A DNA stretch of 64,000 nucleotides, taken from contig NCSJ02000008.1 of NCBI GenBank assembly GCA_002812745.2, positions 124,001 to 188,000 on the forward strand, written 5' to 3'. How positions within the stretch are numbered: position 1 is the first letter of the stretch; the number at the start of each line of letters is the position of its first letter. The position numbers were made by a program, and so were the translations under genes. This stretch comes from Scytalidium lignicola (taxonomy: Eukaryota > Ascomycota > Leotiomycetes). Positions 34,401 to 57,391 of the stretch are shown here, in pieces. The notes below the pieces were generated by a model. That model ran no database searches and was not told where the DNA came from. It saw only the letters and a list, made by a program, of their open reading frames with translations.

Positions 34401-36314
34401 CACGATTTTGATTATGGTGAACCGATAATAACTGTAAAACTTAGTCATTCTGGAAACCGCCTGATCATATATGGGTCTAGTTCAACAAAAATATGGGATA
34501 TGTTGTCATGCTCTTTTATATTTCATATCCCTAATCCAACCTACTCCTCGGTCCTCGATATCAATTTTAGTGCTGATGACAAGTTGGTCTTTATCTTTCT
34601 AGACGATGGCATAGTCAGGCGTAGCTCACTGGACAACCCTGCAGATGGCTGGCAAGATGTCTGCAATACACTTTCACAAAACCACGCCATTTTTGGTGGA
34701 GTAACATGCGCATGCTTTAGCATAGACTCCACTTTAGTAGCTGTAAGCTATAAAGGAGGTCATCTAGTCGTATGGAAAATATCGCAGCAGTGGCCAATCA
34801 CTAGTTACGATGCGAGACGTCCAGGCGGTACAAGTAACAAGTTCAAAATGTTAGAAATTACGCAAGTCACCTGGAATCCTGGAACAAAGCATATTATGGG
34901 CAAATATAGTGATGGCCGTGTGTTCAAGTGGCGTCTCTCCTACGGAAAGCCTGAAGTATTGGATGTTGTTGCTTATCATGTCCAGTGCAGCTCAGATGGA
35001 ACATTTTTTGCTACCTGGAGTCCTGGGAATGTTTTGAAATTTTGGGACATTCATAATTTCAATCTGATTCAGGTAATTCATGTTGAATCCGACATTAAAA
35101 ATATAAGAATAAGTCGTGATGGAAAAAAAGTTTACATAGCACAAGACGCCGCCTTCTGTACCATCTGGCAACTGACATTCCCAACTGTGTCCAATAGTCA
35201 TAGCAGCCAAATCTCTAGATCCGCCATCTTGGAGTCATTTAATAACGAGACACCATACGTTCTTCAATGTTTAGACACAATCACTGCGTTGGCCGTTTGC
35301 CCGGGGACTTCCTCTTACTGCATCGGTGATGCATCAGGTCAATCGAAGATTGTCACTAAAGATGGGAAAGAAATAGTATCTTTTGGTAGATATGGACTTC
35401 CAGTGAAATTTATAGCATGGAGTGACGACGGACGATATGTCGCCGTTGCAGATGGCACAACCACAGTCTATATCATTGACCTATGGCAAGATTCTGACGT
35501 CAAACCTAAGATAAAAATACAGCACGTCGTCAAAAGTCAAGTTCGACAGCTTCTTTTCAGCAGGGCCGGCAATCTGGTTCTGGCAGTAGTTCCAGGCCGC
35601 CTTATATTGATCCCCATGGATGAAAGTTCCAAAATACTAACATATGATGTTCCCGAATCGTATTTCTGGATCAACCACCCTCGGGAAGAGGTATTACTTG
35701 GTATTAGTTGCTCAGGGCTCTTTCTGATTCCATGGGATAAGTTCCCAGACGGGTCTCTAGTACCACTGGTTCAGGCATCTTCGGGGTTTGAATCACAAAC
35801 AAATCAGAGAGCAGGCGCTTCAAATTCGGTAGCTGCGGTCACAAATATTCTAATGACACCTGATTCCTCAACCCTCTTAATAACGATAACCCAGCCCAGT
35901 AGAATGGAGAGAATAGAATGTCGGTATGCTTGTATATATATTAATGATGTAATTTTCGCTACATCAGATGCCTCAGAAGTGCCTTTATATGAAATCCAGG
36001 AACCAATACAAAAACAAATTCGAGAACCTCTTAGCTTTATTGGAGATAAAGTGTTTGGTCGAAGAACACCGATATTTGACCCGTCCTATCGGCATCTAGC
36101 ATTTTTGGATAAAGACGGATGGATCTGTTCAATTACCTTCAACGAGGATTTTTCACATTGGATCATTGACCGTCACTTTTTCTTTCCTAGGGCATGGCTA
36201 GATTCAAGTTCTTCGAAACTGACGAAGGTTACTGAAGATGGGCTAGTTTTCTGCCCGAGACAAAATGAAGTCGCTATTGTGCGGAACGGGTTTAAATCAG
36301 CATGGGTGGAATAA
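31403..36314 (+). CDS. NLR-type receptor: lipase-like, NACHT, WD40
   Basis: Fungal STAND/NLR protein of 1575 residues. Residues 50-250 form an alpha/beta-hydrolase of the PGAP1/DUF676-like type: IIFVHGLRG at 67, the nucleophile elbow VAHSMGG (Ser about 161) and STPHRGSEL. This is a common NLR effector domain. A NACHT-type NTPase follows: Walker A GPQGSGKS at about 386-393, Walker B-like VYWVIDSLDES, sensor-like FRIVILSRE, then a helical arm (FLWAREAIREVARC, LAHDSVRNFL). The C-terminal 650 residues are degenerate WD40 repeats (VVWKISQQW, TRYSDGRVFKWRL-like, LKFWDIHNF, ISRDGKKVYIAQD, IAWSDDGRYVAVADG). Introns are 31859-31935, 31987-32038 and 32303-32357. The second needs a GC donor (AAG/GCTAGC), weaker than usual. 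Repeat units are not near-identical, unlike fast-evolving HET-E/D alleles. Expected role is non-self recognition leading to cell death. Confidence 0.88.
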
Positions 36315-38118
36315 ATAAATTATCCTATTCGTTAAATTACTTATCTATGTTCTATGTTAGAGCTAGGTGATGTATGATTTGAAGATGCAGGGATTATATG
36401 ACCTGAAGGAGGAAGTTTTAGAAGGCCCTCCGATAAAAAATATAGAAGAGATCACCTCGTCTCCATGATATCGAAGTTTCAACGAGAGATCTTCGACCGA
36501 GGCGAACTCACTGATTATGCTCAACTATGAATACCTTAGCTAGTAATTACAATCGCTGTATAAAACAGTGATTAAGACTGTTGAATTCGGCAGCCGTTTG
36601 TCTCTGAGCACGGCGTTTGAGAAATCTTTTTTTTTCATTAATGTCTATTCTTGCGAGATTATTACACCAAATTGTAATAGGTAATGAACATATAATAAAT
36701 TGAACTACTGAATTAACTACCTTACTATGAGTAGGTATGGCCATGTATATAGTGTTCTATAATCCCTTGTAAGCCACAGCGGTTTGCCTGTAGGCAACTG
36801 TAGGCACATAAACAACATTTATTATAGCAGAAAATGAATTTTAGCAAGCTCGAGGATTTTCCAGATTGTGACTTGCTGGTTTCTCCTTTAGTATCGATCG
36901 AGTTTGCTTATATCTCGATCGATCCCGAACGGAATGCCTCAGGAACTTGAGATTTGGACTTGTGATTTCGGAGAGGTTTCGTTCTACATATTTCGGTAGG
37001 ACCTGAGCCCCCTAAATTAAACGATCATATTAGAATTAAGCTGAGTAATTCTATTCGAGCAATAGCTTTAGAGCTCACGATTTCTACAAAGTCGCTTTCA
37101 ACCAAAGACTATTACATGACATTCAAGTAATGTTCTGAAAGTGCTAGCTTACCTTGTATATCCTTAGAGCATGTTACTTGGAAAGTGTTTTCATTTTACA
37201 AAAAGGAAAAATGTTATCTTATCTGATATTGTTATTAATAAGGCTATAACATTAACTAACTTAAATGACAAGTTTAACATAAAGATTTAAGTGATATTAT
37301 TATTTTCTTTTAGCAAATTTGGATTTCAAATAATCACTACCACTAAATATATCCGCTCTGACAGTTTTGTAAGACACAGTTATTTCTCTATCTTAAAATT
37401 CAATAATAATAATAATAACAAGCCCTGCTTAAAATACTTATATCACTTGCCGAGGTAATATGTACACAAAATTCGCCAGTATTAGTAATAACCTTAAGCA
37501 TAAACTGCCCTGAGTTAAGTTAGTATAACTTTAACATTAACAAGTGTATATTTATGGTAATTTTTTTNAAATCATACTCTAGATTCCTTACGGATTGTAA
37601 AGAACTTTATGGTTACATTAGTATCCACCAAGATATAAGCAGACTGTATCATACCAGCGGATCGCAATCAGCAAGTCGCCACCACAGCAGATCCTCGGTC
37701 GCCAAGACCCATTGCTCCCATAACAAAGTAAAAACACTCGTAGCCTGGGAGAAAGCTCATGATCCAGCTAATATTCTCTGGCCGTCCCCACTCTTTGTTT
37801 TTTTCTCATATTTGGTAATCGTATACATAGGTCTCGAGAAAGTGTGACGAGACTCTGCCAAAGACCTGAAGTACGCTTTAATCACAACTCATTTCAAGGC
37901 CTAAAGCGGCCCCAAAGGTCCCTGTAATTATGGGGCATACACGACACTCCAATCGTTGAGCGCCCAAGTAGCGCCTTGGCACGAGTCTTAGCACATTTTA
38001 CTGCGACCACCCTATATCAAAACAAGATTTCTAGTGATCACTTGCGGTCGCGAATATACTTCTCTGTCATCATTCCCGACACGAAACAACATGCGATGCT
38101 ACAACCTTGAACACCACA
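36315..38118. other. Intergenic, AT-rich
   Basis: About 1.8 kb. AT-rich from 37100 to 37570 with an N at 37568. The final 400 bases are more GC-rich and are the likely promoter of the CSC1-like gene. A weak open frame at 37554-37847 crosses the N and has no recognised domain. Confidence 0.45.
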
Positions 38119-41100
38119 ATGCCCGACATCTCAAGTATCCTGAATGGAACGATCAATGGAGCTGTAGGATCAGCACAGGGTAGAGTAGGGACGACGATTA
38201 CAACCTTCGCCATCTCCTTGGCCGCTGGTGTCATTCTCTTTGCGGTTCAGTTTGGTATGTTCCTCGTCATTAGGAATTACCTATGGGCCAAACGAATCTA
38301 TCAACCAAGATCTTTTTTGGTACCTGTCAGGCAAAGGATCAAACCACCCCACAACAATCCGGTCAAATGGCTGGTCACCCTTTTCAAGATCAAAGAAGAT
38401 CCCGAAGTCCTAGAAAGGGCCGGCATGGATGCATACTTCTTCCTCAGGTTTCTCAGCATGTGCCTCAAAATATTCACTCCCATGGCCATCGTTATCATGC
38501 CCATCTTAATACCACTAAACGTTAGCCAGGGAAAAGGAACCAACACAATCAGCGGCGTGACGTACAATATCACGGGACTGGATACTTTGGCCTGGTCAAA
38601 TGTCTCGCCAGCAAAGACCAGCAGATATTGGGCGCATTTGATCTTGGCTGTCGGGGTCGTGGTCTGGGTTTGCTTTATGTGTCACCAAGAATTGAGCCAC
38701 TACATTGTCAAACGAGTAGAGTTCATAAGCAGTCTGGGTCACAGATTGAAAGCATCAAGCACAACTGTTCTCATCCAGGATATTCCAGAAAACCTCTGCA
38801 ATGAAGAAGCGTTGGAAGAGCTATACGGCGACTTTCCAGGTGGCATCCGGCGCATTTGGATCAATCGAGATTTTACCATCCTTGTGAAGAAAGACAAGCT
38901 CCGGAAGCACCATGAAACCCTTCTAGAAAATACCGAGACCGATCTACTTCGAAAAGTGGCCAAGAAAGGCCACAAGGCAAAACAGCACCAGCGAGGAGAA
39001 TCGGGGCAAGAAGCTCCAGAGTTTCCATCTAAAGAGGGCCGAGCTTCACACCCTGCGCGCCCAGAAATGGGCCCCCCAACTCCAGCAACATGTCGCCGTG
39101 ATCTGGAATATGACCTCGAAACCAAAGCTGAGTGGACTAGGTTCCTAACGCCAAAACAACGGAAAACAATGAGAATACCAAAAGACGGACACACAGCCGT
39201 AGCTAAAATTCCCCTCATTGGCCATTTCTTTACTAGCAAAGTTGACACGATCTATTACTGCCGTAGAGAACTTGCTCGACTAAATAAGGAAATCGAAATA
39301 GATGCTAGGACGCCAGATGCATATCCACAAAATCTGTCGGCCTTTGTCCAATTCAATTCTCAAAAGGCAGCACACCTTGCTTGTCAGTCCGTTGCCGACA
39401 CGGCACCCAACCATATGAGGAGAAGAATGGTTGAGATCTCACCTGGGGACATCAACTGGCCCAGCTTAAATTTGTCCTGGCGTGCTCGCTATCTCCGTTT
39501 TGTGGGCTTCCTTGTCCTTTTCGCGATTCTGATACTTGCATTTGGTCTTATCTCGTTCTTCACCGGTATACTGTCTAGAGTCTCCACCCTCTCTGGGTCA
39601 ACGTCTTGGCTCAAATGGATCAGCAGTCTCCCTCCGTGGTTGCTCTCCTTCATACAAGGTACCCTCCCACCTATCATCCAAGTGATTATTCTTAGCGGAC
39701 CACTTCCGATTCTCCTTCGTCTCCTGACGAACACGACCAGAGGTGCCACGACAGGCCAGGAGGGGGAGCGCTCACTTCAGTTGTGGTACTTCATTTTCCT
39801 CCTCTTCGAACTTTTCATTATACCCACCATCTCCTCCGGTCTTACCAGCATTGTTAATGAACTTATTCACACTCCAACATCGGTACCAAACATCCTCGCC
39901 ACGAATTTGCCCACGGCCGCCAACTACTACTTCTCATTCTTGATCTTGCAAGCACTGTCCCTAAGTGCAACCTCAATTTTGCAGACCATTCGATTATTCA
40001 AATTCTACGTCATTGGCCATGTCAATACTCCTGACTCAGTGTTCCAAAAACTGAGCTGGACAAATTTAACGCGCATTGGTAGTAATATTCCGTGGTATAT
40101 TACCTTTGCAGTCATCGGTATGTATCATATCATCCACGGTTACCGGTTTTGCACTAACCTTAGATTAGGACTTGTCTATTCTACCATCGCTCCACTTATG
40201 TTACTATTTATGCTTATCACTTTTAGCCTCTTTTGGGTAGTGATCAAGAATAACTTACTTTATTGCGTACGAACAGGCACTGTTGATGGAGGTGGACTAT
40301 TTTTTCCCAGCGCCATCAATCAGTTATTCACCGGCCTCTACTTCATGGAATTTTGTCTCATTGGTCTATTTTTCTTGGTGCGTGACACTCGCGGCCATGT
40401 CGCATGTGAGGCGCAGGGCACCATCATGGTGGTGGTTCTTATCTTTACAATCTTGTATCAGATATGGCTCATGAACCATCTCGCTCCCTTGTTCCAATAT
40501 GCCCCTGTCCGATTGGAGGTTGAGTCCAAGGCTTTACTAGCAGACTACCAAGAAAAACGCCGAACGGGAAGCCCCGGGATCCATGAAACCTCAGAAGCTG
40601 CCAATTTGGATCCCCGAGATGGAGATACAGACCCTTTGGATCTAGCTAGAGAGAGTGCGTCTCGCGCCCAGAATATCGAGACGGCTCATGAGCCTGAATT
40701 GAGCACTCAACCGAGACCACCCATTTGGCAGAGGCAGTCATCACATCGATCCCAGAATTTACAAGCTCAACAGCGTGAAGATGTTAAATCTGCCGAGCGC
40801 ATACTTGCCCGCCTCAATCGGCCACTCGACGAAGCCTGGCTGGCACGTCTCGAAATGAAATTAGCCCGGACCGAAGCAGGTAAAGGCAGGGTTCTACTGC
40901 CGCGACGCAAAGACATAGAAGCACAGATGCTCGATGACCCAATTTCAAAAATCATCATGCAACACAATGATGAACTGGAAAACCTAGACCCCGAGGAACG
41001 CGACATGTTGATTTCGGTGGCATTCATGCATCCCGTATTACGAGAGACCAGGCCAAGCGTTTGGATCCCTAAGGATGAATTAGGGGTCAGTGATGACGAG

Positions 41101-41238
41101 GTTAAGCGGACCAGAGAGCTGAGTGAGGATGTGGTGATTGATAACAGAGGGGCATACTTTGATCGGAGATTTAAAGTGCAGGTTGACAAGCCGCCACCAG
41201 ATATGTCTGAGTTTGCGCTTATTATGGCAGAGCTCTAG
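38119..41238 (+). CDS. CSC1/OSCA-like stress-gated cation channel (DUF221)
   Basis: Multispanning membrane protein of 1039 residues, intronless, of the CSC1/OSCA/TMEM63 family of hyperosmolality- and stretch-gated calcium-permeable channels. N-terminal region with three membrane segments (ISLAAGVILFAVQFGMFLVI, FTPMAIVIMPILIPL, LILAVGVVVWVCFMC). The cytosolic loop then contains SSTTVLIQDIPENL and a proline/charge-rich insert, followed by TIYYCRRELARLNKEI and SAFVQFNSQKAAHLACQ. The RSN1-type seven-helix core starts at EISPGDINWPSLNLSWRARYLR and runs through IPTISSGL, YYFSFLILQALSLSATSIL and LLFMLITFSLFWVVI to the GTIMVVVLIFTILYQIWL helix. A long cytosolic C-tail ends the protein. The first ATG in frame (MPDISSIL) is the start; a TTG four codons upstream has no support. 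Complete, no signs of decay. Convergent with the tandem-NTPase NLR. Confidence 0.93.
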   Translation: MPDISSILNGTINGAVGSAQGRVGTTITTFAISLAAGVILFAVQFGMFLVIRNYLWAKRIYQPRSFLVPVRQRIKPPHNNPVKWLVTLFKIKEDPEVLERAGMDAYFFLRFLSMCLKIFTPMAIVIMPILIPLNVSQGKGTNTISGVTYNITGLDTLAWSNVSPAKTSRYWAHLILAVGVVVWVCFMCHQELSHYIVKRVEFISSLGHRLKASSTTVLIQDIPENLCNEEALEELYGDFPGGIRRIWINRDFTILVKKDKLRKHHETLLENTETDLLRKVAKKGHKAKQHQRGESGQEAPEFPSKEGRASHPARPEMGPPTPATCRRDLEYDLETKAEWTRFLTPKQRKTMRIPKDGHTAVAKIPLIGHFFTSKVDTIYYCRRELARLNKEIEIDARTPDAYPQNLSAFVQFNSQKAAHLACQSVADTAPNHMRRRMVEISPGDINWPSLNLSWRARYLRFVGFLVLFAILILAFGLISFFTGILSRVSTLSGSTSWLKWISSLPPWLLSFIQGTLPPIIQVIILSGPLPILLRLLTNTTRGATTGQEGERSLQLWYFIFLLFELFIIPTISSGLTSIVNELIHTPTSVPNILATNLPTAANYYFSFLILQALSLSATSILQTIRLFKFYVIGHVNTPDSVFQKLSWTNLTRIGSNIPWYITFAVIGMYHIIHGYRFCTNLRLGLVYSTIAPLMLLFMLITFSLFWVVIKNNLLYCVRTGTVDGGGLFFPSAINQLFTGLYFMEFCLIGLFFLVRDTRGHVACEAQGTIMVVVLIFTILYQIWLMNHLAPLFQYAPVRLEVESKALLADYQEKRRTGSPGIHETSEAANLDPRDGDTDPLDLARESASRAQNIETAHEPELSTQPRPPIWQRQSSHRSQNLQAQQREDVKSAERILARLNRPLDEAWLARLEMKLARTEAGKGRVLLPRRKDIEAQMLDDPISKIIMQHNDELENLDPEERDMLISVAFMHPVLRETRPSVWIPKDELGVSDDEVKRTRELSEDVVIDNRGAYFDRRFKVQVDKPPPDMSEFALIMAEL

Positions 41239-42441: not shown

Positions 42442-45400
42442 TCAAANCCCCCCCCCAATAAGTCTCTCGATCAGCTTATTCTGATCCCCTTCTCTGAGTG
42501 CTTGGTGCTCAGATGACTTAGGCTCCTTATCATTATCTTCTTCTCCGACAACCCTTCGTCTTGCCGCTTTTGCTGTTCTAGCAGCGGTAACTTTAACATC
42601 CTCAGACTTGAACACGATGAAAGCACGTTTTTCAGCCCGTGACCACGATTTCTGGAGCTCTTCAACGATACCATAATATTGTCTTGATGTTGCGAGTTCC
42701 AGTGCATGTTCCCCGTCGTCCCGAATCATACCTAGATGGCTCCCCGTGACATCCATATCATCTAATTGTTCGTATTTTCTTAATATGAAAGTGACAATTT
42801 CTATGAACCCATTCATCGCTGCGAGGGTCAAAGCTGTGTGTTCATAGCCTGATATCATTTTTGTATGTTCTTGCAAGCTTGCGCCACTCGAAACTAGAAA
42901 CTCGACTGCTTTGAGCCTTCTAGAAAGCGCAGCGATGTGTAGAGGCCGCATTCCATCCTCATCTTCTGCTTCTATGTCTGTGCCGGCAGTTATCAAATAT
43001 TTCATGACTCGTAAATGTGCCTCTGCCGACGCAATGTGCAGGGCGCTAGTACTTCGAGCCATTCTCACATCTGGTTGAACTTTACCAGAAGCGATGATAA
43101 CATTAACAATATTGAGATGCCCATGCTTGGTTGCTGCAAAGAATGCTTCCTTGCAAGTCGTAAGTTTCTCCGTCTTCCCATTGTCAAAGACGCTCCGGAC
43201 TGTGACGAGGTCACCACATTTTGATGCTGCTAATAACGTCTCAGACAGGTCGTCCACTCCAGCCTCCATGATCAGTTTTGCAACTCTACTCTTTCCAAAC
43301 TCGGCAGCGGTTAAAATGCATTTCATTCTGAATTTGAGTGCGTTAGTATGGGTGGGATATCTGTCTGGTAAAAGCGTATGCCGTAATGCCCAGTCCTCTA
43401 AGAGTTGCCATGGGTAAGAATCAGCCTTTGCTTGGAGCGTCCGAAGATAAAAAGCAAGACCATCTCTCAATAGCCGAGAGTCTGACACCTGAAGGTATTT
43501 TGGAAGAGTTAGAAGAATATACTCCAATAATGGAAGACGGTTAAGATGGGAAATAAAACGCTTGTAATCCTCTTCTTTCCAATATTTAGGATCTAGTGAT
43601 AAATCGTTTGCAGGAAAGGATAACTGTAGATATTTGATTGCTAGCTGCGAAATGCTGGAAGCACTAGGAGCAGCTTGCAATTGAAAAGGTGCTGCCCGCT
43701 CATTCCATAATAAAAAGTCCTTTGCAGATCTGTGCAATAACTGCAAAACATCTGTGTCGGAGAGATGATGGCGAGACTGGGTACGGTTATATTTGGTACC
43801 ATACGCTGGCTCCAGAAACCCACCGCAAAAGTACAAGATAGCTTTATAAACTTGTCTCTCGGTGGGGAGACGGTTCTCGGACAACAGAGTCATTGATAGC
43901 GGGGAAGCAGTGTCAATCTGTGTAGTGTTGAGGTAGATGTCTCCAATAGCTATGATTTCTCGGAATTCCCTGAATGACAATGGTCTGTAGGCGAATGTTA
44001 TCCACGACAGCATCATTTTTGTTTTCGCCATCTGTTGCTCTTTTCCATATCCCGCCCTCTCCTTATTTTTTTCAACTCTTTTCACGATTCGTCGGATCAT
44101 CTCTTCGTAGCATTGCTCCAAATCTTGTGGCAGACTTGATAACATTTGTTTTATGCCTCCCAAAGTCCAGAATCCATCGAGAAAGACTTTTCTAAGCTCT
44201 TTTATTATTAGAACAACCCATAAAATAATACCATTCGCGTGCTCCAGAAGATACTCTTTCAAAAAGAGCATATCAGTAATTTCCATTTCTTCTAACTCCT
44301 TGAGAACAGAACTTCTATGCTTGGCTTCATCATTACCTGAATCCTCAGTATCGTGTATCTCATCGACTATTTTTGACGGATCTTTGAGCGATTGTACAAT
44401 TGAGTCTAAACCCTCAGATACTATTTCTTCGATATCTAACATAGTCTGCTGGTGCATTTCAATGGAGCCAAACGCGTGAAGTTTGCTGTCGATGTCAGTA
44501 ACTGGACGGCTAGTTATGATGACCTTCAAGATGCAAGCGGGCTTCGAGTTGGTACGGTATTCTGAGCATAGAGAAGATAAAATATCTAAAAATTCAGTCC
44601 GGTCTATGTCCTCTCTGTTCTCAGATTCATCGAAAGCATCGATAATCAAGTAGAAACGTGGCGAGACAAATACCCGTTGGTGATTACCATGGACACAGAG
44701 AGACTGGAATATTTTTTTCAGAGTTGAACAATTCCAAGATTGCGTAGTAGAACGGACATGGTGAAAGGCTTCGCGGAAATACTCGTAAAGCTTCGGGTTT
44801 TGAGTAAGGATCTGGTAGAGCAATGCCTGCAACATCCACTTGGAGCTTCGAGACTTTTCTCCACTCCAACTACTGAAAAAATAATCTGCAACGATATCCA
44901 TTGAAGAACCATCGTAGCTTTTGGGACCTGACATCGTTGCTGATGTTGTATCGGATTCTTCATATGTTTGTATCCCGGGTGAAGCTTGCAAGAGACCCTC
45001 AGATATCGGACCGAGTGATCTCCTGATCATTTTAGCAAGGGTCGATTTACCACTCCCAGGTTTGCCCTTGATCCAAAGAACCATTGGTTTATCGATACCT
45101 TCAGATGAATACCAATCCTTGTAAATTGGATGGTCCCAGATCCACTGATAGGCGTTTGCTAAAGCGATGCTTACATCGTCTCGACGAGAGAACATGCCAT
45201 CAAAGTATAAACTTGTAAGGCACTCTGTAAAATGGTTAGAGAAAGTCAATTCCAGATGATAAGATAATATTCCACTGCTAACCTTTATATTCCCTGTACT
45301 GGAGAATGGTTGGCACATCCTCTAAAAGTGTCCCAATATCACTGTAAGGCCGGCTTGCGACTAAGATATGAACTCTGACACATCTTGCCCGCAATGCTTT

Positions 45401-46147
45401 CCACATTTGTAATAGATGGTACAGAAATGACTCTCGTGCACGCACAGTCATATGATCGACGTCATCAATTATGAGTAGAACGCTTGTTGACTTTATTGCC
45501 TCTAGCGTGGTTTGAAGTAGATTCTTCATAACCTCATTAGATCCGTCAGGGAGAAAAGTATTTCGGCTGCAAAAGACTCTTTCCCAGTCAGATCCAAAGC
45601 GCTTGATTAGAGGTTTTATTGATGGGGAGAGCAATTGTCGTCTTATTGAGCCTTCTTTGTGGTAATAGTTACTTTTTTCTATTGACTGGATTAGTACCTG
45701 GGAGAGGAGGCTTCGAAATATCTGATGAGGGAATATAGGGTTGAGAACACGGGATTTCCCATCTGAGGGTGGCTCTGAATAATATGCTGAGTAGGTATCT
45801 TGAAGTTCTTTTCGATCGTGGGTTTGTTCATGATGGATTCTGCCAAGAAGTACAGATTTGCCGCTTTGGGGAGGCCCCGGATACCAGAGGAATGTCGCTG
45901 ATTCAGAATTTAGGAATGATGTATACTCAGGAGAAGTGATAAACCAGTCTATGGTATCTAATTTCTCATGAAAACAAGATTTGTTAAGATCCTCTGCAAT
46001 TTTGTTTTGGGCTGCCGCCGTGAATACGATATTTTCCATTCCTGTTACCAAGTCTTGAGTTAGACACTTGACGATACAACACTCTGGTGATACGTAGCCT
46101 GAAATAAAGTGTATTGATTTAGGTAATCTGACAGTAGGATGTCCCAT
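42442..46147 (-). CDS. NLR-type protein: two P-loop NTPase domains and ankyrin repeats
   Basis: Spliced product of 1215 residues, one intron (45225-45282) with exact frame. Residues 40-285 hold a P-loop module: Walker A GPPQSGKS at 91-98, Walker B VLLIIDDVDH, and HILVASRPY near its end. The block CLTSLYFDGMFSRRDDVSIALANAYQWIW follows, typical of the start of fungal NACHT-ankyrin proteins, with a second P-loop GKPGSGKS at 342-349, Walker B FYLIIDAFDES and VIITSRPVTD, then a helical arm (YEEMIRRIVKRVEKNKE, MLSWITFAYRPLSFREF). About five ankyrin units follow (SALHIASAEAHLRVMKYLITAGTDIEAEDEDGMRPLHIAAL is the clearest). Two NTPase modules in one NLR are unusual. The last codons run into nine Gs and an N (42447), so the C-terminus is uncertain. 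The frame is open upstream of the chosen ATG, so the protein may be a continuation of the patatin gene upstream. Confidence 0.82.
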
Positions 46148-46303
46148 CTTTAGCCGACTTTTCGAAGTATATTGAAAAAAGACNTTTTTTTTGGAGGACA
46201 GTTACTGCACACTGCAAAAGAACCTCGACTATTCCACGTAAGATGAAACATTCTACTATCACGCTACCCAATCAATTCGGTGTTGTTGGCTCTACAACTG
46301 AAG

Positions 46304-47649
46304 TTATGTCATTTCAATGGGTCCTGAGGGCTTACTTTTCCTATCCCTAAGAATCGCTGCACATTTCCTTACTTTCTTGAATGTCTCTTGGTCCTCAAGA
46401 TAGCGATCTGTCACGGCAATGATAGAACTTTTGCTCTTTGAATCTTCCATGGCAATCTTATCCAAGCCACTCGGCACGTTGAACCTATAATAACGGCCTC
46501 CATCACTCAAGAGAGATCTATCCCGTGCAAATCTCCGAGCAGTCTTTTCCGTCTCTGTTGTCATAGCTAGTAGTGCCTTTGCAATTGCAGTTGGGTAGAC
46601 TCCAAAAGCCTTCGGGCTTGGAACACCTGTACCTATGGAAACAATGCATCCAATATCTTGTTCGAAAGATTCACTGCTACTCTCAGGGCCTTCTGAAGAG
46701 AACGCGTCCTTTGCTAGGAGCCAGAGATCGTACACAGGGTTATTTGCCCCAGTGCCTCCATCTAAGAATACGGTTCCATGTGATCCAAGGGTAATAGGAT
46801 CGAAAAATGATGACGCTGCGGATGTTGCCATCGCTCCTTCCCATATCGTGACTGATTTAAGTAGATCATCTCTTGCTCGCCGATTGGGGAAGCTCGTCAG
46901 GTGAACAATGTCTGAAGTTTCTTGACTTGTCGCACAAACAAAACTTGATGAAGTCAGCAATAAACAGACTTGTTTGCTTGAACAATCCCAGATTCATTGG
47001 AATGTTAGATATTATAATGTCCCAGTTTGATTGATTCGGCTTTTCTCAACTGAATATGAATGGCTCACATATAACAGTAGACTTGGAAAGGCTTCACCTT
47101 GCATATTATCCTTACTGCTATTTAAATTACATAGTAGACATGAAATACAATAGATTACGATATTCGAGTTTATGAGATACTTAAAAAGGAGGTACTTACA
47201 CTTTGCATGCTTGGGGGTCCGGATCCCATAATAATGTCTTGTCATCCAATCCTGCAGTTGTTACAACTGATTTTATGCTAGACTCTAAGGCAGCTGAGTC
47301 ATAACGAGCCTGTACCTTTCCCATGAAAGAGAGGCGATGGCCCTTCTTAACGAAGACCTTATCAGCAAGTTTTGTGTACGCGTTTATGCACTCATCAACT
47401 GACATCTTCAGTCGACCCAGCATAATCGCCTGGAGCCTAAGATGGATTCAGAACAAGGTCCAAGTGTTTTCGGAGGTGCAGTAGTTACCCGCCGGTACTT
47501 GTGCCTCCTATCATGTCGAAATAGTTACAAGGCTTCGGTGGTGAAGCGGGGTTGATTTCATACATCAATTGCTTCAGCACCTGCAAAGATGACAGTCCGC
47601 GTACCCCGCCACCATCAAGGCACAAGAGCTGGAGCTCTTTTCCAGGCAT
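46304..47649 (-). CDS. Patatin-like phospholipase
   Basis: Lipid acyl hydrolase of the patatin family, 345 residues. Oxyanion motif DGGGVRG at residues 12-18, nucleophile elbow GTSTGG with Ser about 51 (split over the first intron), and the catalytic aspartate in FLDGGTGANNP, so the Ser-Asp dyad is complete. Further blocks are CKVFVCATSQET spliced over the second intron, EGAMATSAASSFFDP and IVSIGTGVPSP. Introns are 47437-47488 and 46944-47199; the latter is long for this region at 256 nt. The reading frame closes at GPIEMT. In fungi this domain is often the N-terminal effector of NLR proteins such as the Neurospora PLP-1 system. Only 156 bases separate it from the tandem-NTPase gene on the same strand, and a good donor (GTAAGC) lies 20 bases before its stop, so one patatin-NTPase-NTPase-ankyrin protein is a serious alternative. 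Confidence 0.87.
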
Positions 47650-49774: not shown

Positions 49775-50078
49775 ATGGCGAATCGTGTGTTTTACTTCTT
49801 CTTTGCTCCCACATGGGATTATCCACCAGGAGGACCCATCAAGTTGGGCAATGTAATCACATCAGTCAAGAAGCCAGAGCGGCCGCTGTACACTGCGCCT
49901 CTACCCACTGACGCCGAGGTGTTCTCGACGGAACAGAGACGAGTCGAATTCTCAGAGGAGAAGCTTAGGGCAGGGCAGTTGTCAATCTTCACGACGTTTC
50001 TGAGTGTGCTGGGCGCAGGTGTAGATGGGTCTTTGGAGAAGGAGGAGAGGCATGTTGGCTTTTGAGNTTTTTTCTTTT

Positions 50079-50110
<32 letters not shown>

Positions 50111-50834
50111 TTCCCCATAAATTTATTATGTATCCTTGGATAGGCCGGTATGGCGAATTCCCATTTTTAGTTCTCTCGTTCGAAAATAATACAACTACAA
50201 CCATTTGGTTTTGGCTGGAGCTAACCCACCGTCCCCTTACCCTAGTGACAAAGACCTCTACGCTTTCGACCGGCTCGAGACTACTCAGTTCTTCCCGAAT
50301 GAAACCTACCTCCAGAAATGTATTGAAGCTGAGCCGGTGCACCGCTACCTAGACAAGTCTCGTTACCGAAAACCCATCTATGTTATCACCGGCCTCAAGA
50401 CCGTGACTGGAGCAAGAGCTAAGTCGCTTCGGGCTCGAACTGTGAGCGGTAGCTTTGGGGTCGAGGTTGATGGGACCGTGTGGAGTGGCGGCAGTGTGCC
50501 CGTCGGTGGTGGGCCGCATATTGGGGGAAAGAAGGAGACAAAAATAGCAACGTCTTGGGAGGGAAGCAGTGACTTTGTCTTCGCCTTTAGGGTGCGGAAA
50601 GTTCTTGTGGAGAGGAAGATGGGAACAGTGAAGAAGGACGAGGATTATAAAACAGGTGCCATGCTTGAAGATAAGATTGAGGAGATGGACGCCCCGGAGT
50701 TCTGTATCGTGACCGAGGAGGACCCAGATGCCGAGGAGGAAGGCTTTCTGAAGGAGGAGTTGATGGATGGCGATGCGATGGTCGCTTGTGCTGTTCCGAA
50801 TCTGGAGGGAGGTGTAGAGGATAGTATAGAGTAG
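49775..50834 (+). CDS. Fungal gasdermin-like protein (RCD-1/HET-Q1 type), candidate
   Basis: About 290 residues in two exons. The N-terminus reads FYFFFAPTWDYPPGGPIKLGNVI, then a KLRAGQLSIFTTFLSVLGAGVDGSL segment. The second exon has DLYAFDRLETTQFFPN, KPIYVITGLKTVTGARAKSL, two amphipathic beta stretches rich in Gly/Val (GSFGVEVDGTVW, GGSVPVGGGPHI) and SSDFVFAFRVRKV. The order YVITGLKTVTGA - amphipathic hairpin - GSSDFVFAFRV parallels the gasdermin pore-forming domain (YVVTE... then GS-x-LAFRV). The tail of about 75 residues is acidic (EEDPDAEEEGF). It faces a subtilisin-like protease gene 157 bases away; known fungal gasdermins of this class kill cells by membrane pores after a clustered protease removes a C-terminal segment. 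The assignment is by pattern, not search. The intron lies about 50030-50231; GG/GTCTTT to CCCTAG keeps frame but the donor is weak, and an N (50067) lies inside. Confidence 0.62.
50073..50113. repeat. (TTTC)n microsatellite
   Basis: About nine TTTC units following an N at 50067 and a T-run, inside the presumed intron of the gasdermin-like gene. Confidence 0.9.
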
Positions 50835-50901
50835 GTGGTCTGGTCTAGTAGCAGATTAAGGGCTAGAAGAGATGGTTTGTGATGAGGCTGCTTTAGATGC
50901 C

Positions 50902-50927
50902 ATATATATACATATATATATATATAT
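50902..50927. repeat. (TA)n microsatellite
   Basis: Alternating TA run interrupted by one C, located between the convergent gasdermin-like and protease genes, in their shared 3' region. Confidence 0.85.
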
Positions 50928-50991
50928 CGCACACATGATACTGTAAATACTATGAGCAGTAATTTACGTCACTCTACAACTCGTGCCCTCA

Positions 50992-53900
50992 CTAACTACT
51001 CAAAATATCTCCTACCGTTAGATCAATAAACGCCTTCTCCTTCCCAAACAAGCTGTCCATGTACAGGCTCAAATCAATGAAGTAATAGCCATCCCTCGGC
51101 TTGAACCCCTCCCCCTTTTCCGCCACCCGCCTCAGCACCGCCCTCATTCTTCTCTGGCTCTTCAAACGATCTGCCTTGTCTGGTAGGTGAATTCTCACGT
51201 ACAGCAGTAAAAAAGCTGCGATGGCCGCTGCAATAGGCGTTGCGTACGACGTACCTGACTTGCGCCGCACATACGACAGTGTTGGGTTAGGGTTCATGGT
51301 CATGTTTGCAGCGTCATCGTTGTCGCATAAATGCACTGGCCACGCCGACTCGACAGCCTCGCCGACTGTCGCAAGGTTAATATCGCCTCCCGCCGCGGTT
51401 GGGCTGAAGCTGGACCGATTGCCGTTCGCATCGGTGGAGTGAACGCAGATGACTGTGGGTTCACGGGCTGGGTATGCCCGTCCTAGCTGGCCGCCGTTGT
51501 TCGAGGCAGCAGCGAAGAGAAGTACATCGTTCGCATAGGCATTCTTGAGGGCGCTCTCGAGCTCGGAGTAGCCATCGATGGAGCATGTTGGGAACCCAAA
51601 GGACATGGAAATGATGTCGACTTGCCAAGTCTCGACAGCATAGTTTATGGCCTGAATCTGTCAATTAAGATGCTAAGTTTCGTCACATAATCTTGGCTAT
51701 TAAATACCTCTGCAATGATACTTGGACTCGACGGCTTATGTTCAGCGATCTTGGCGATATAGAGCTGGGCATCAGGCGCGTAGTCAAGGAGTAAATCTGC
51801 CGTGAACGTGCCATGACCGTTTCTGTCATGGACCGCCTTCTTAAACTTCTCGTTAAGCCAGTTGTACTTCCCTTTAATATTTTCAAGGCGCGCTTCTATG
51901 TCTGGATGGGTTAGATCGATGCCTGTGTCCAGAATCGCGATCTTCACAGAAGATATACGAGTGTGGTCCATCTGTGCCGGAATGAACTTCTCGTAGACTT
52001 TCTGATACCTAGACTTCCAGTTCAAGTAGCTCGAGCACCTGGAAAGAGTTGGTGTTGGCGGTCTGAGCATAATTAAAAGGTGACGATCGGCTTTTGAAAT
52101 CATCGGTGACTTACGCTTCGCGGGTATGTGCCTCAGAAATAGTCTCATCATCGAAGAAATTGGAAGCTTTGTAGTCAATATCTTTACCCTGATCCATTAT
52201 CTCAGCCATCTTGTATGCAACCTTAGGAATAGGAGCAAGATGCCGTTCCCATTCGACTGCTTCTGGTGGCTGAAATAGTATCTGAACTGCCTGGACATGA
52301 GGGGGATAATATGGCGATGCGGACCTAGGTGATGGACTGAATGTTTGCCTAAGGTCTTGTGCATGATCCAAAGACGCCTCGGTTTGTATCTGTTGATTCT
52401 GTATTTTCTGGTCCCAGCTGGCAAAATCCAACGTCTGCGCGAACCGGTCAAGATCGTCGATGGAGATAGAGCTGTAGGCTTGGCTCAGTTCGTTCTCTAG
52501 CGGCCGGATGACCTCTTGGTATATTCTGGTCCTTAGGGTTTGGCTATCCAGCTTGTTTCCATCCTCATCCTCCCAAGGCGTCGGATCTAAGCACTTTTCC
52601 ACAGCATAATGGAATTGGAAATTTTCGGGGATTTCGCCTCTACATGCCTGAAATACGAGATTTACATCAATGTATCTGGTGCGGCTGGATGACTCCCCCA
52701 TCAATACCATATTTCTTAGCTAGAAGGTTAAACGGCGTCACAAAGTACACCTCCATCAGCATCACCGCTAATGTGATGAGGGAGGGGCATTGGTGTCGCA
52801 CCAGGTCATCCGGATCAATGTCGTCTGGGTCGATATCGTCTGGGTCGATTCCGAGGGGATCGTAATCAGCTGGGCCGCATCCGGGATCTGTATGATGTGT
52901 CATGAGATGTTGATCTATGTGTAAATTATCTGCGTCCAGGTTTGAGAGCTGGGTCTGAAGAAATGGTCTCAATGGAATTGCAGAAGAAGCTGTACGGAAG
53001 AATAGGATGTTAGAAGAACTCCACGTGGGTTGAAGCCAGGGGGTGTCATGTAGATGGAGGACAGCGTAACTGAGAATTAAAGCAAGAATACGTCTAGTCC
53101 TCTCAGTGAAGGACCGTGATCCACCCTGAAGAAACTGTTCTAGAGAGATGGGGTCCTTCGTCTTGTCGACTGGGAAAGTGCTCCTCTCTGACTGCAATTT
53201 GTACAGTTGAACACCCTTGACTTCGAACTCGAGGCGATATGCCTCCATCTTCTTAATCTTCTGGATTGGCTCACACAAGCTTTTCACTCTCATAGTCTTT
53301 GGCCTCCTTTTCTTGACTTGCGATTGCTGTACCTGACCAGCAACTGCCCACTTGACAGCCTTCTCCTTTGTGGTGTGGATATGTACCTCGTGCCAATCTT
53401 GCATCATGGAGAGAAACATGTCGAAATCAAGTTCCTCGTCTGTATCCACATCATTTCCAAGGTAGGGTTTCCGGTAGGTGCCCAAACGGAGCTGAGCACC
53501 AAACTCATGCGCGGGAGTGCATAGACAGTTCTTACAAGCCGCAAGGGCCTTGAAAACGGACTGTGCTGCGTTCTGCACTGCATATGGTGGTTCTCTGATC
53601 TCCATCCGAAGTGCAAAGTCGTCCGCTGTCCACTGGGACGGATCTTCGGGATACCGTGCCAGGAGATCCTCTTCCCACGTGGCTAGTGATTCTACAAACT
53701 CATTACGTTTCTTGGGAGTCGCACCGAAGTTTAGACACAGTGCGTTGAATTGAAACTTTTCGCCATACCTATGTTGCTTTCGCATCCTGTCCCAGCGCCG
53801 ATTGAGCCCTCGTAATAATCCTATGCTAGGGAGCTCGTTTGTGGACTTCTCCCATTGCTCAAGAATAGAGGGGGTGACTGTCGACTCAAGTTGGTCCAAG

Positions 53901-54127
53901 ATTCGGACGATAAGTTTGTTATCCATCCCAATAGCAGCATTGTTAATGCGGTTTAAGTGGTCACGGATCATGTAGCAGTAAGCCATCAATTTTGCGTAAA
54001 AGGCCTTGAGTTCTTCATCTTTCTCATTAATCCTTACGACCTTGGCGATATCTTGGAATGTCCTGAATGTGTCTAGGAGCAAATTGATGGTGTCCGTGCT
54101 CCCATGAACAGAGGGGATTGGAACCAT
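50992..54127 (-). CDS. Subtilisin-like serine protease (S8) with N-terminal DUF7580-like domain
   Basis: Protein of 987 residues, four exons, introns 52648-52693, 52039-52114 and 51658-51707, spliced frame exact. Residues 1-560 resemble the fungal DUF7580 helical/kinase-like region (FQDIAKVVRINEKDEELKAFYAKL, then LALILSYAVLHLHDTPWLQPTWSSSNILFF and HAVEKCLDP-like block). The protease domain covers about 680-940: catalytic Asp in VKIAILDTGIDLTHPD (about 693), His in DRNGHGTFTADLLL (about 731), oxyanion Asn in AAASNNGGQLG and Ser in RKSGTSYATPIAAA (about 903). All residues are present, so it should be active; no signal peptide is seen, so it is intracellular. DPDD repeats at 52806-52860 encode a small acidic array. 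It converges on a gasdermin-like gene, the arrangement of Podospora HET-Q2 and HET-Q1, and diverges from a C2H2 gene. The first intron (46 nt, GTCATC donor) is the least certain. Confidence 0.88.
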
Positions 54128-54532
54128 CTCGTTGCTTTGTTGACTCTGTTGAACTGCAGTAGGTCTGAGAAGTCACTGAACATAAGCTCAGCCTCACAAA
54201 TGTTCTTCGTCGATAAGTTTCTAGACAAAGGTAACATCTGATGCGCTTGTACTCGCAACATGAGGCTCGTGAAGCTTATGTAGCCCTGCACTATTTACTT
54301 CTGTGCACAGTAATTATTGAGGTAAGGATTTGGGTGGCAGCATCAACTACCCAGCCACGTGATGCTGCCCAATACGCGCTGCCTGATTGCTGAGGTGTTT
54401 AAGCCATGAACACTCTTCTTTGGATATCGATATGTACTTACCACTCGTGTCTAGCTCACTGGTTTTCCACGGGCGATAGGAGATTCGAGCCATATGTTTC
54501 TGGTTTAATAATTTACCTCAAATGTCGCTCAG
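54128..54532. promoter_or_regulatory. Divergent promoter, protease/C2H2 gene
   Basis: About 405 bases between two start codons pointing away from each other, so both genes probably share control. No specific operator is recognised by eye. Confidence 0.4.
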
Positions 54533-57391
54533 ATGGCGGACACGGCTGTCGAGGAGCAGCCCACACATATGCCCACAGTCGCCAGGTGCGTTGAGTCGTG
54601 CCTCCATTCTTTCCAACAATGCCTTTGCAAGGCAGCATCTGTGCATGTCCGGGAACTCTCACTAGTGGAAGACCAGCTTGCGAGATTCTCCATCTGGACC
54701 GCCAACATTAGAGTCTTTGTTCCAGGTCGGGGCTCCTTAGACCATCGCTTGCGAGAAGCGCCCGACGTCCAGGACGCCGTGGCTAGTCTTTTGGAGGCAC
54801 TGAACTACAGTCTGCAGAATTGTAGGTACATGTATATTGGTGAACCAATCTTCATACTCATAGAAAAGACTGCTGATATCTAGGCTTGGCCAACTCCGTT
54901 TAGGCTCACGCATCCTTGAATCCCTCCATCCAGAGACATCTGATGACTCGTTGGGAGCCATCAACGAGAAGTTTGACCAATCTGTTCGAGGAATCGCTAA
55001 CGAGATAAGCCTTCTTCACAGGTTCTCAAACACCATCCGCAGGGCGAGCAGAGAGACACAAAATGTGAAAGCGGCCAAGACATTTCGGATCCGAGATGAT
55101 GAAGGAAACGACGTGGAGCCGTTCTTGCAAGAGTTGTTTGCCAACCACATACGCGACCGGTTTCCTGGGGTTAGCGACAACATTCGCCAACGTCTCGCCA
55201 GTACCATGTTGTTGCGCCGGAAGAGAATTCTATACCGGAGGCATCGTTATGGAAAGACCACTATCAGGCCTCAGGAGGTACCATCTCAGCCTTCCTTAAC
55301 GCGGCCTATAGCTCGGACCTGGGGGCGCACGTTAGACCACCCAGAGGAACCTGCGAGGAAGCAAGTGACTTTGACGCCGTCCAGGAGTGTCGTGCAGTCA
55401 CTTACGCAGACCGCCACAACATTGTCACCCGAAAGCTTTCAAAAGGCATCAGGTCCGTCCGTGGTTTCGGTGTCCAAGACTGTTGCGTTGAGTAACCACG
55501 AGGAGCTCCCATTCCCTCTTGCTCCTTGCAGCGGCCTATTGCGGAAGTACAGACAGCTAAGGAAGCAACGAGAGGAGAAGCACAAAGTTGATCTCGAGTT
55601 CCTGACAAGTAACGAGGAGCAGAGTGGGCAACCGCATCTATACGTGAATTTAATTTCTGCCGCTGAGGCGGAACACAAAGAGACACTTGAGCAGGATTGG
55701 AATGATTGCCTCAGAGCAATAGGGGAGGTGACCTGCCCTTTTTGCTTTTACGCACTGCCGGCTCAAGATGCTACCGATGAGAAGAAATGGAAGTATGTTA
55801 TGGTTATAGCCCTTACTCTGAAACCACATAATTGCATTCATATCATTTAATCTTCAAAGCAAATCAAGTCACTGATAACAATAGGTTGCACGTCAAGAAT
55901 GACCTCGATCCTTACGTTTGTCTATTCGAGGAGTGCGACTCGCCCGAAGAATTATACAACCACAGTGATGTATGGCTCAAACACATGCGCCAGCACGCCT
56001 TGCGTTGGCGCTGCATCTCGAAATCCCACATTGAGTTTGTGGGAACGACTAGGGATGAATATCTCTCACACATGAGAACCGCTCACCCGCGCAAGTTCAC
56101 CGATGCTCAACTTGGGGTCCTAGCCGATAGAAATGGCTGGATGGTCGGTCCCCTGTTCACATCTTGTACATTATGTGGGATAGAGAAGGTCGATGGTAAC
56201 ATAGAAGACCACATTGTTGGGCACTTGCGATCTCCCGCCCTGAAATCTCTACCCGGCTATGAAGAGGAGGGACTGGATGATTTAGAGAGCCAGGAGGGCA
56301 GCGTGGCTACTTCGAGGCCACAGAGCAGGAGCACAATCAAACTGGAGCCGGAGAGGCATATTCCCGTGACTTTCTCTGATCTCCAGGTGTTATGGGCCAA
56401 ATCAGACCCTGGCTCGTCCAAGTACGAACCTTGGGGAGGGTTTCGAAACTATATTGCTCAATTCCCAGAAGGACAGAGGCTCCCAACTCAAACAACCGAT
56501 TCATCTTTACTTACAGATGCCACTGAGACTTCTCTAACTCCCCAACTTCCACCCCCGTTGCAACTGAATTGGGAGGAAGAGCCTGGATTGTACGATCCAT
56601 CTATCGAATTTGTCGAAGATGGCTTGTTCGATGGGGTGTCTAATATAGAACGACGACTTTTCGAATGGGGGTTTATCCCTGACGCTCACAGGTCAGCCGA
56701 AGGTCTCGAGGACGATCCTATCCTGCAGGAATTTCTTAGAAATTCCCATGTGAGCAGTAGAATGGACCCAAATTGTGCCATATGCGACGGTTTAGCCATC
56801 ACCTGTTGCGACTGCGAGGCTAAGGCCCTGGACGTGGCTGTTAGGCAGGCTGAAATGAGAATGATGCAGCCATTGTGCAACGACATACGGAAGTGGGTGC
56901 GTGAGCACTCACAGCATACCGTGCTACGAGGCTTCGAGGCGCATTATCAGAAACTCAGAGAGTCATCTGCTAAGGTCCCACAGCCCGCATTGATGGAGGC
57001 GGATCCGACGGCTCAGACAGCATCTTCGGGGCAAGCTGAGAACGAGATATTATGGCCACTCACACAACAAGAGGTAAACGAGTCGTGGAAAGCAGCAGTT
57101 CAAAGTTATCCGGAAACGCTCGAATACTTCTACGGCCTAGTTGACCTAAATTTGCCGACCGATGACGACCAAATGGTGCGAGATCCGCCGCTGAGTGCTA
57201 TACCGCTCTCACAAAAACGGAGACTAAGTAGTAGTGCGGCCGGTCTGTCACGGAATAGTGAGAGCCATAGGAAGAGCTATTTGGTGGACGGCCTTAGTAA
57301 GTCAGGCTCCCGGGAACCCGCGCACCCCCCAAAACGCGCATTCCCCACACCATTCCACAACAACACGTCTACAAGCTTTACACATGAATAA
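54533..57391 (+). CDS. C2H2-type zinc finger protein, fungal
   Basis: Protein of 902 residues in three exons (introns 54826-54883 and 55793-55884, exact frame). The N-terminal 130 residues are helical (CVESCLHSFQQCLCKAASVHVRE, DHRLREAPDVQDAVASLLEALNYSL, SVRGIANEISLLHRFSNTIRRASRE). A basic segment follows (RRKRILYRRHRYGK), then a coiled-coil-prone part (RKYRQLRKQREEKHK). The centre has degenerate C2H2 fingers: TCPFCFYALPA, DPYVCLFEECDSPEELYNHSDVWLKHMRQHALRWRC, EYLSHMRTAHP and SCTLCGIEKVDGNIEDHIVGHL. The C-terminal half has CAICDGLAITCCDCEAKALDVAVRQAE, a cysteine cluster with a helix, and an unstructured tail. Such proteins are typical of expanded fungal families found near NLR and protease genes; their role is unknown. 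It may be a regulator or a partner of the protease, with which it shares a promoter. Complete and not decayed. Confidence 0.8.

Follow-up and report, generated by a model that had tools for sequence, protein, structure and literature searches.

A gasdermin gene and a DUF7580-subtilase gene of Scytalidium lignicola form a probable two-gene cell-death module

A 64,000-nucleotide stretch of the Scytalidium lignicola genome (positions 124001-188000 of contig C653, which measures 309,105 bases; hereafter the window) carries, side by side, a small gasdermin-like gene and a gene for a subtilisin-like protease of family S8 fused to the domain DUF7580 (PF24476). Together the two genes very probably make up a cell-death module of the gasdermin/HET-Q2-like type known from fungi. 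An earlier note on this DNA had proposed a gasdermin-protease cell-death module, and homology, fold, the S8 motifs and the recurrent pairing of the two genes all support that proposal. The pair belongs to the published type of two-gene module in which a fungal gasdermin (fGSDM) accompanies an S8 protease. Measured from stop codon to stop codon, the convergent genes are separated by a spacer of 157 bases (50835-50991), confirming the distance and orientation previously given.

The small gene occupies positions 49775-50834 of the plus strand and comprises exon 1 (49775-50049), a GC-AG intron of 196 nucleotides (50050-50245) containing a CTTT microsatellite and a single N at 50067, and exon 2 including the stop codon (50246-50834). 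Removal of the intron yields a protein of 287 residues, in agreement with the gasdermin-like product of approximately 290 residues described earlier. Across the splice junction (residues 75-110) the model aligned without gaps with 19 of 24 relatives; differences of 1, 1, 3, 17 and 41 columns separate it from the remaining five. The deposited protein B7463_g888 (P0001) is identical to this product minus seven residues at the intron junction. Both order elements on which the earlier note had relied, YVITGLKTVTGA and GSSDFVFAFRVRKV, are present in the small protein. Exon 2 by itself gave a gasdermin match with an E-value of 1.3e-9, and a profile comparison returned RCD-1-1 at 1e-15 and HET-Q1 at 1.3e-6. 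Comparison of the predicted model with solved structures likewise recovered a gasdermin fold for the N-terminal domain, with RCD-1 matched; RCD-1 is thus the top match in both sequence and structure, with HET-Q1 scoring below it. HET-Q1 (9uv9) was not among the listed structure matches of the model, an absence that excludes nothing. A Pfam scan of the spliced protein gave no family; PF26164 is precomputed for two of the listed relatives, but a scan of P0035, which is one of the two, did not return it. On homology and the predicted fold of its N-terminal domain, the product of the small gene is a fungal gasdermin.

The protein ends in a 55-residue tail of 6.0 kDa (50667-50831) that follows residue 232 and is conserved in relatives. 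With 21 Asp or Glu residues against 2 Lys or Arg, it is as acidic as had been claimed, and it is the proposed inhibitory element. The tail is modelled as folded, with strands at residues 237-243, 252-259 and 262-269 of P0001 and a block of predicted confidence (pLDDT) of 90-93 over residues 241-270, falling below 50 over residues 222-232. Immediately ahead of the tail lies the conserved hydrophobic motif GAML (50655-50666). Searching with a simple expression placed a GAxx motif 40-57 residues before the C-terminal end in 34 of the 35 gasdermins from the listed pairs described below; in the exception, P0005, the expression took an earlier place, but the alignment row reads GALL at the motif position. 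In the pore structure 9uv9, the chain of HET-Q1, compared via a paralogue on contig C585, stops at the aligned GAML place. HET-Q1 sheds approximately 5 kDa and is likely cut at F238, according to a 2025 review (PMC12881547). Because of its conserved position, the end of the HET-Q1 pore chain and the loss of approximately 5 kDa from HET-Q1, GAML is the likely cleavage site and our best guess. We also considered whether the motif FFDDE of the protease imitates the site at which the gasdermin is cut; this idea was dropped because across 35 pairs the gasdermin motif is identical with or without FFDD in the partner, there being no covariation.

The protease gene lies on the minus strand, from a start codon at 54127 to a stop codon ending at 50992. 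Positions 52115-54127 encode an N-terminal helical region, the DUF7580 kinase-like module, inside which the reading frame is broken, and a linker, with FFDDE (52144-52158) ahead of the S8 domain. A GT-AG intron of 76 nucleotides follows (52039-52114); three near relatives stop at this place, and the deposited model takes another acceptor. The next exon (51708-52038) holds the N-terminal half of S8 with the catalytic Asp motif AILDTGID (51938-51915) and the His motif NGHGTF (inside 51821-51798). After a second GT-AG intron of 50 nucleotides (51658-51707), the boundary of which differs slightly in the deposited model, the last exon (50992-51657) supplies the C-terminal half with the oxyanion Asn motif AASNNGG (51510-51490), the Ser motif GTSYATP (51255-51235) and the stop codon. 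The complete Asp-His-Ser triad attributed to this protease is therefore present, together with the oxyanion Asn. Pfam recognised the two S8 halves with E-values of 2.8e-17 and 2.5e-8 and DUF7580 with 5.3e-25. The fusion of a DUF7580-like domain to the protease, also claimed earlier, is upheld by this match; the sensory or regulatory role given to the domain is one that we infer. The deposited protein B7463_g889 (P0121) consists of four pieces, each found letter for letter in the window. Its nearest solved proteins are subtilisins (7e-19), and no HET-Q2 appears among the best 60 of 107 solved structures near it. The features of a Q2L-type protease were thus found, namely an S8 domain bearing the Asp, His and Ser motifs plus the oxyanion Asn, encoded 157 bases from an fGSDM gene.

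The pairing of the two genes was followed across fungi among the relatives listed, namely 120 of the 210 gasdermins found and 166 proteins with the N-terminal module (120 of 190 joined with 120 of 164). The latter are made up of 91 S8 fusions, one of them without a precomputed DUF7580, 47 proteins with DUF7580 only, 24 fusions to a PNP domain, 2 to a GTPase and 2 to both. By simple expression, all three catalytic motif patterns occur in 81 of the 91 S8 relatives, the other 10 being without one; FFDD is present in 61 of the S8 fusions and 39 of the 47 DUF-only proteins, and in none of the 28 PNP or GTPase fusions. Genes were taken as paired when both members were listed on contigs of identical size, treated as the same contig; one gasdermin and one S8 row carry no contig. 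On this basis 38 of the 120 gasdermins share a contig with a module protein, which is an S8 fusion in 35 cases and DUF-only in 3. No PNP fusion (0 of 26 among the matches listed, a weak negative) shared a contig with a listed gasdermin. Eleven pairs have positional locus tags, and these are consecutive in ten and two apart in one. Across the 35 pairs the identity matrices of the two partners are correlated (r = 0.74, whereas 2000 label permutations reached 0.25 at most), and in 24 of the 35 both partners point to the same nearest relative. The recurrence accords with the clustering of fungal gasdermin and protease genes invoked by the earlier note. As reported in PMC10197012, approximately 1900 fGSDMs are known from 400 fungal genomes and approximately 80% are clustered with proteases, approximately 63% of fGSDM genes with S8 and 19% with CHAT, in 18 protease architectures.

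Pairing also recurs within the S. lignicola genome. A search with P0001 identified gasdermins on contigs C648 (E-value 1.6e-8) and C585 (2.9e-4), each 25% identical to the gasdermin of the window. At both loci the gasdermin gene lies downstream of, and on the same strand as, exons for S8 and DUF7580, bringing the DUF7580-S8/gasdermin pairs in this genome to three. The C585 paralogue is a HET-Q1-like gasdermin (2e-29); for that of C648, a single-sequence comparison with PDB gave nothing meaningful, and its identity rests on relatives and profile. The order of the two genes is convergent in the window and tandem at the paralogous loci; the two genes therefore share no promoter. A different protease accompanies a gasdermin-like gene on contig C274, where a TPR-CHAT gene (L043:3885-6926, minus strand) and a divergent gasdermin-like gene (L043:7348-8001, plus strand) lie approximately 0.4 kb apart. 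A Podospora TPR-CHAT protease has been shown to activate its neighbouring gasdermin, according to PMC12881547. At least six CHAT matches were found in the genome, and of the three neighbourhoods read (C47, C274 and C341) only that on C274 had a gasdermin match at an E-value of 1 or below. On contig C488 a gasdermin-like frame (L041:4154-4756, minus strand) is accompanied by an upstream sub-threshold DUF7580-like fragment (6785-7168, minus strand), with no S8 recognised in 8.5 kb; this is perhaps a decaying pair. No protease was recognised in the 10 kb read with a gasdermin-like fragment on C501, the neighbours being read as open reading frames (ORFs), and neither C488 nor C501 is named among the S8 and CHAT matches listed for the genome. 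The TPR-CHAT pair, together with C488 and C501, rules out that every gasdermin of the genome is paired with a DUF7580-S8 protease. At least six gasdermin-like loci were counted in the stretches examined.

The module may operate as follows. The acidic tail would keep the gasdermin inactive. Through ligand-like binding or through oligomerisation, perhaps, the kinase-like module would respond to a trigger and free the protease, which would then cut the gasdermin at or next to GA[ML]L (residues 229-232) and release a fragment of approximately 6 kDa. The N-terminal domain could thereupon assemble into pores in the plasma membrane, resulting in cell death. The role of the module is likely to be defence or non-self recognition.

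The reading frame of the protease gene is interrupted within DUF7580 (52691-52702), at a run of five G residues. The break, which the earlier note had missed, falls at about 52700-52695, between KKYGID (52717-52700) and ESSSRT (52695-52678). All 15 other rows of alignment A1 keep the broken stretch, and all three near metagenomic relatives read through it as one open frame. Twenty-one GT-AG intron combinations that restore the frame (GT donors only) were rejected, as each deletes residues conserved in the relatives when judged by eye against A1; a hand-picked intron of 31 nucleotides was also discarded. The deposited model skips the stretch by means of an intron, dropping approximately 40 residues that the 15 other rows have. 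The protease sequence was used here as assembled, with no base restored. The Ion Torrent platform is prone to errors in homopolymer length. Since the break sits at a G5 run in an Ion Torrent assembly, a homopolymer sequencing error is probably the cause, a real lesion being the other reading. The draft genome of S. lignicola strain DSM 105466 was built from Ion Torrent PGM reads (PMC6256649), and the window is likely to derive from that assembly, though the paper gives 826 contigs against 664 here.

Several points weigh against the module. The evidence for it comes from sequence and fold prediction; the frame of the protease is broken in the assembly, so that the S. lignicola copy may be dead; at least two loci with a gasdermin-like sequence, on C488 and C501, lack a recognised protease over the length read; 82 of the 120 gasdermins have no contig match among the module proteins listed; and neighbouring genes that descend together would likewise show correlated distances. 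A decayed module, in which the gasdermin survives and the protease is a pseudogene in this strain, would follow a published route, a pseudogenisation model being described for the het-Q and rcd-1 allorecognition systems in PMC10197012, and the relatives stay in frame over the broken stretch (15 of 15 rows and 3 of 3 metagenomic sequences). Against it, the break coincides with a homopolymer in an assembly from Ion Torrent PGM reads, and the remaining protease exons retain open frames and motifs; we consider decay unlikely.

It is quite improbable that the two genes are chance neighbours, the gasdermin working independently of this protease when two variants meet, as RCD-1 does, and the protease being directed at another target. 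RCD-1 is free of cleavage control in the account of PMC12881547, and the convergent order in the window differs from the tandem order on C648 and C585; however, such pairs turn up in several genera and at three loci of the S. lignicola genome, the 55-residue tail after GAML is conserved, and the protein, at 287 residues, is longer than RCD-1-1 (257) or RCD-1-2 (244). The N-terminal module might itself be the killer, as an MLKL-like helical bundle with a pseudokinase, leaving the protease and gasdermin as a secondary arm. Such an arrangement would suit the approximately 200 residues modelled as helices (a region barely probed by the fold search) that precede the kinase-like domain, and fusions of fungal HeLo-like domains to kinase or pseudokinase domains are known (Fig. 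6 legend of PMC12881547). No Pfam match for a HeLo-type N-terminus was obtained at an E-value of 1 or below, and we regard this arrangement as very improbable. The protease-activated gasdermin pair remains the preferred reading.

The best fold matches of the DUF7580 model are kinases. With the motifs placed by eye and a kinase fold presumed, P0142 has WLQPTW at the HRD-like place, where W, L and W are kept in 82 of 82 rows, the place of the beta-3 Lys is His in 63 of 82 rows and the DFG-like place reads IPLRPF. With these positions taken by us to correspond to the catalytic Lys, HRD and DFG motifs, DUF7580 is a probable pseudokinase that has lost all three, as far as the predicted fold can tell. 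Residues 13-197 of P0142, ahead of it, are modelled as mostly helical. The name DUF7580 (PF24476) was not found in the literature searched. In Fusarium and Thelonectria the N-terminal module is followed by a variable linker and then by PNP_UDP_1 where the S8 domain would stand, some proteins of F. graminearum having a GTPase domain after it; over residues 1-470 the module in Fusarium and its kin is 40-54% identical. PNP domains act in bacterial defence as nucleotide-depleting effectors. Tentatively, the N-terminal module of approximately 560 residues, the helical region with the probable pseudokinase, could be a portable death switch, coupled to a subtilase and thence a gasdermin in many fungi and to PNP_UDP_1, sometimes with a GTPase, in Fusarium and its kin. 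If this were true, gene fusions would have swapped the killers attached to a kinase without catalytic activity, one input leading to membrane lysis or to nucleotide depletion. As the same module is borne by either enzyme, its trigger could be studied with either read-out.

A divergent neighbour, whose open frames (54512-54880, 54864-55847 and 55832-57388, within 54512-57388 on the plus strand) lie upstream of the protease gene, is only a candidate for membership of the module. Its two longer frames had no Pfam match; zinc-finger-like Cys/His stretches were discerned by eye in some frames of this kind. Related frames diverge from DUF7580 genes on C648, C585, C221, C532 and C543, with a best E-value per locus of 6.7e-13 to 2.5e-5 in a search of 2230 ORFs (L034:2975-4282, L032:3068-5751, L049:2072-3911 and L048:2725-2901 on the minus strand; L050:2891-5827 on the plus strand). 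DUF7580 was matched on 12 contigs, of which the survey covered 7; the neighbour stood beside DUF7580 at six of the seven loci, with or without a gasdermin, and on C333 no related frame was found in 6 kb upstream of the DUF7580 gene. The idea that the neighbour is a third gene confined to gasdermin pairs was rejected, as it flanks DUF7580 genes without an S8 match on C221, C532 and C543; it therefore goes with DUF7580 genes in general and not with gasdermins. This divergent zinc-finger-type gene could be a standing partner of DUF7580, for example in sensing.

Elsewhere in the window, approximately 3 kb from the pair, the ORFs of a NOD-like receptor (NLR)-like gene (42445-46993, minus strand) encode a patatin-like segment (46307-46993), NPHP3_N/NACHT and ankyrin repeats. 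A frame of 1318 residues (32358-36311, plus strand) with NPHP3_N (NACHT-type) and WD40 repeats represents a further NLR-type gene, such that the gasdermin pair and two NLR-type genes lie within 22 kb. An ordinary gene for an RSN1/PHM7-type membrane channel or transporter is located at 38038-41235 (plus strand). Nine isolated single N bases are scattered across the 64 kb window, which fits base uncertainty in the assembly.

Of the systems described, HET-Q1/HET-Q2 of Podospora anserina is alike in combining a gasdermin-fold pore protein that has a short tail, removable in HET-Q1, and an S8 protease, and in that GAML of the window gasdermin falls where the HET-Q1 pore chain ends. It differs in that het-Q1 and het-Q2 are idiomorphs, different genes at one locus (PMC12881547), whereas the S. 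lignicola genes stand side by side; furthermore, the window gasdermin is closer by score to RCD-1, the HET-Q1-like member being the C585 paralogue. RCD-1-1 and RCD-1-2 of Neurospora crassa, the top sequence and structure matches, act by the meeting of two variants with no proteolysis, as that review describes them, in contrast to the acidic tail and protease neighbour found here. The Q2L proteases (Clave et al. 2022, as cited in PMC10197012 and PMC12881547) resemble the present one in that their S8 domain is encoded beside a gasdermin and carries a further fused domain; in the S. lignicola protease this fusion partner is PF24476. Fusions to 'other predicted kinase-like domains' are included among fGSDM-associated proteases in the Fig. 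6 legend of PMC12881547. TPR-CHAT/gasdermin pairs, such as that on C274, follow the same logic with a caspase-like protease and TPR in place of S8 and DUF7580.

The present analysis contributes the kinase-like character of DUF7580 without kinase motifs, the PNP_UDP_1 fusions, GAML as the likely cut site ahead of a tail modelled as folded, and the recurrent divergent neighbour. The regulation of fGSDM-controlling proteases is listed as future work in PMC12881547. With this pair the known pyroptosis-like modules of fungi gain a well-delimited class, DUF7580 with S8 and gasdermin, and DUF7580, an unnamed Pfam domain, gains a concrete setting in the control of cell-death enzymes.

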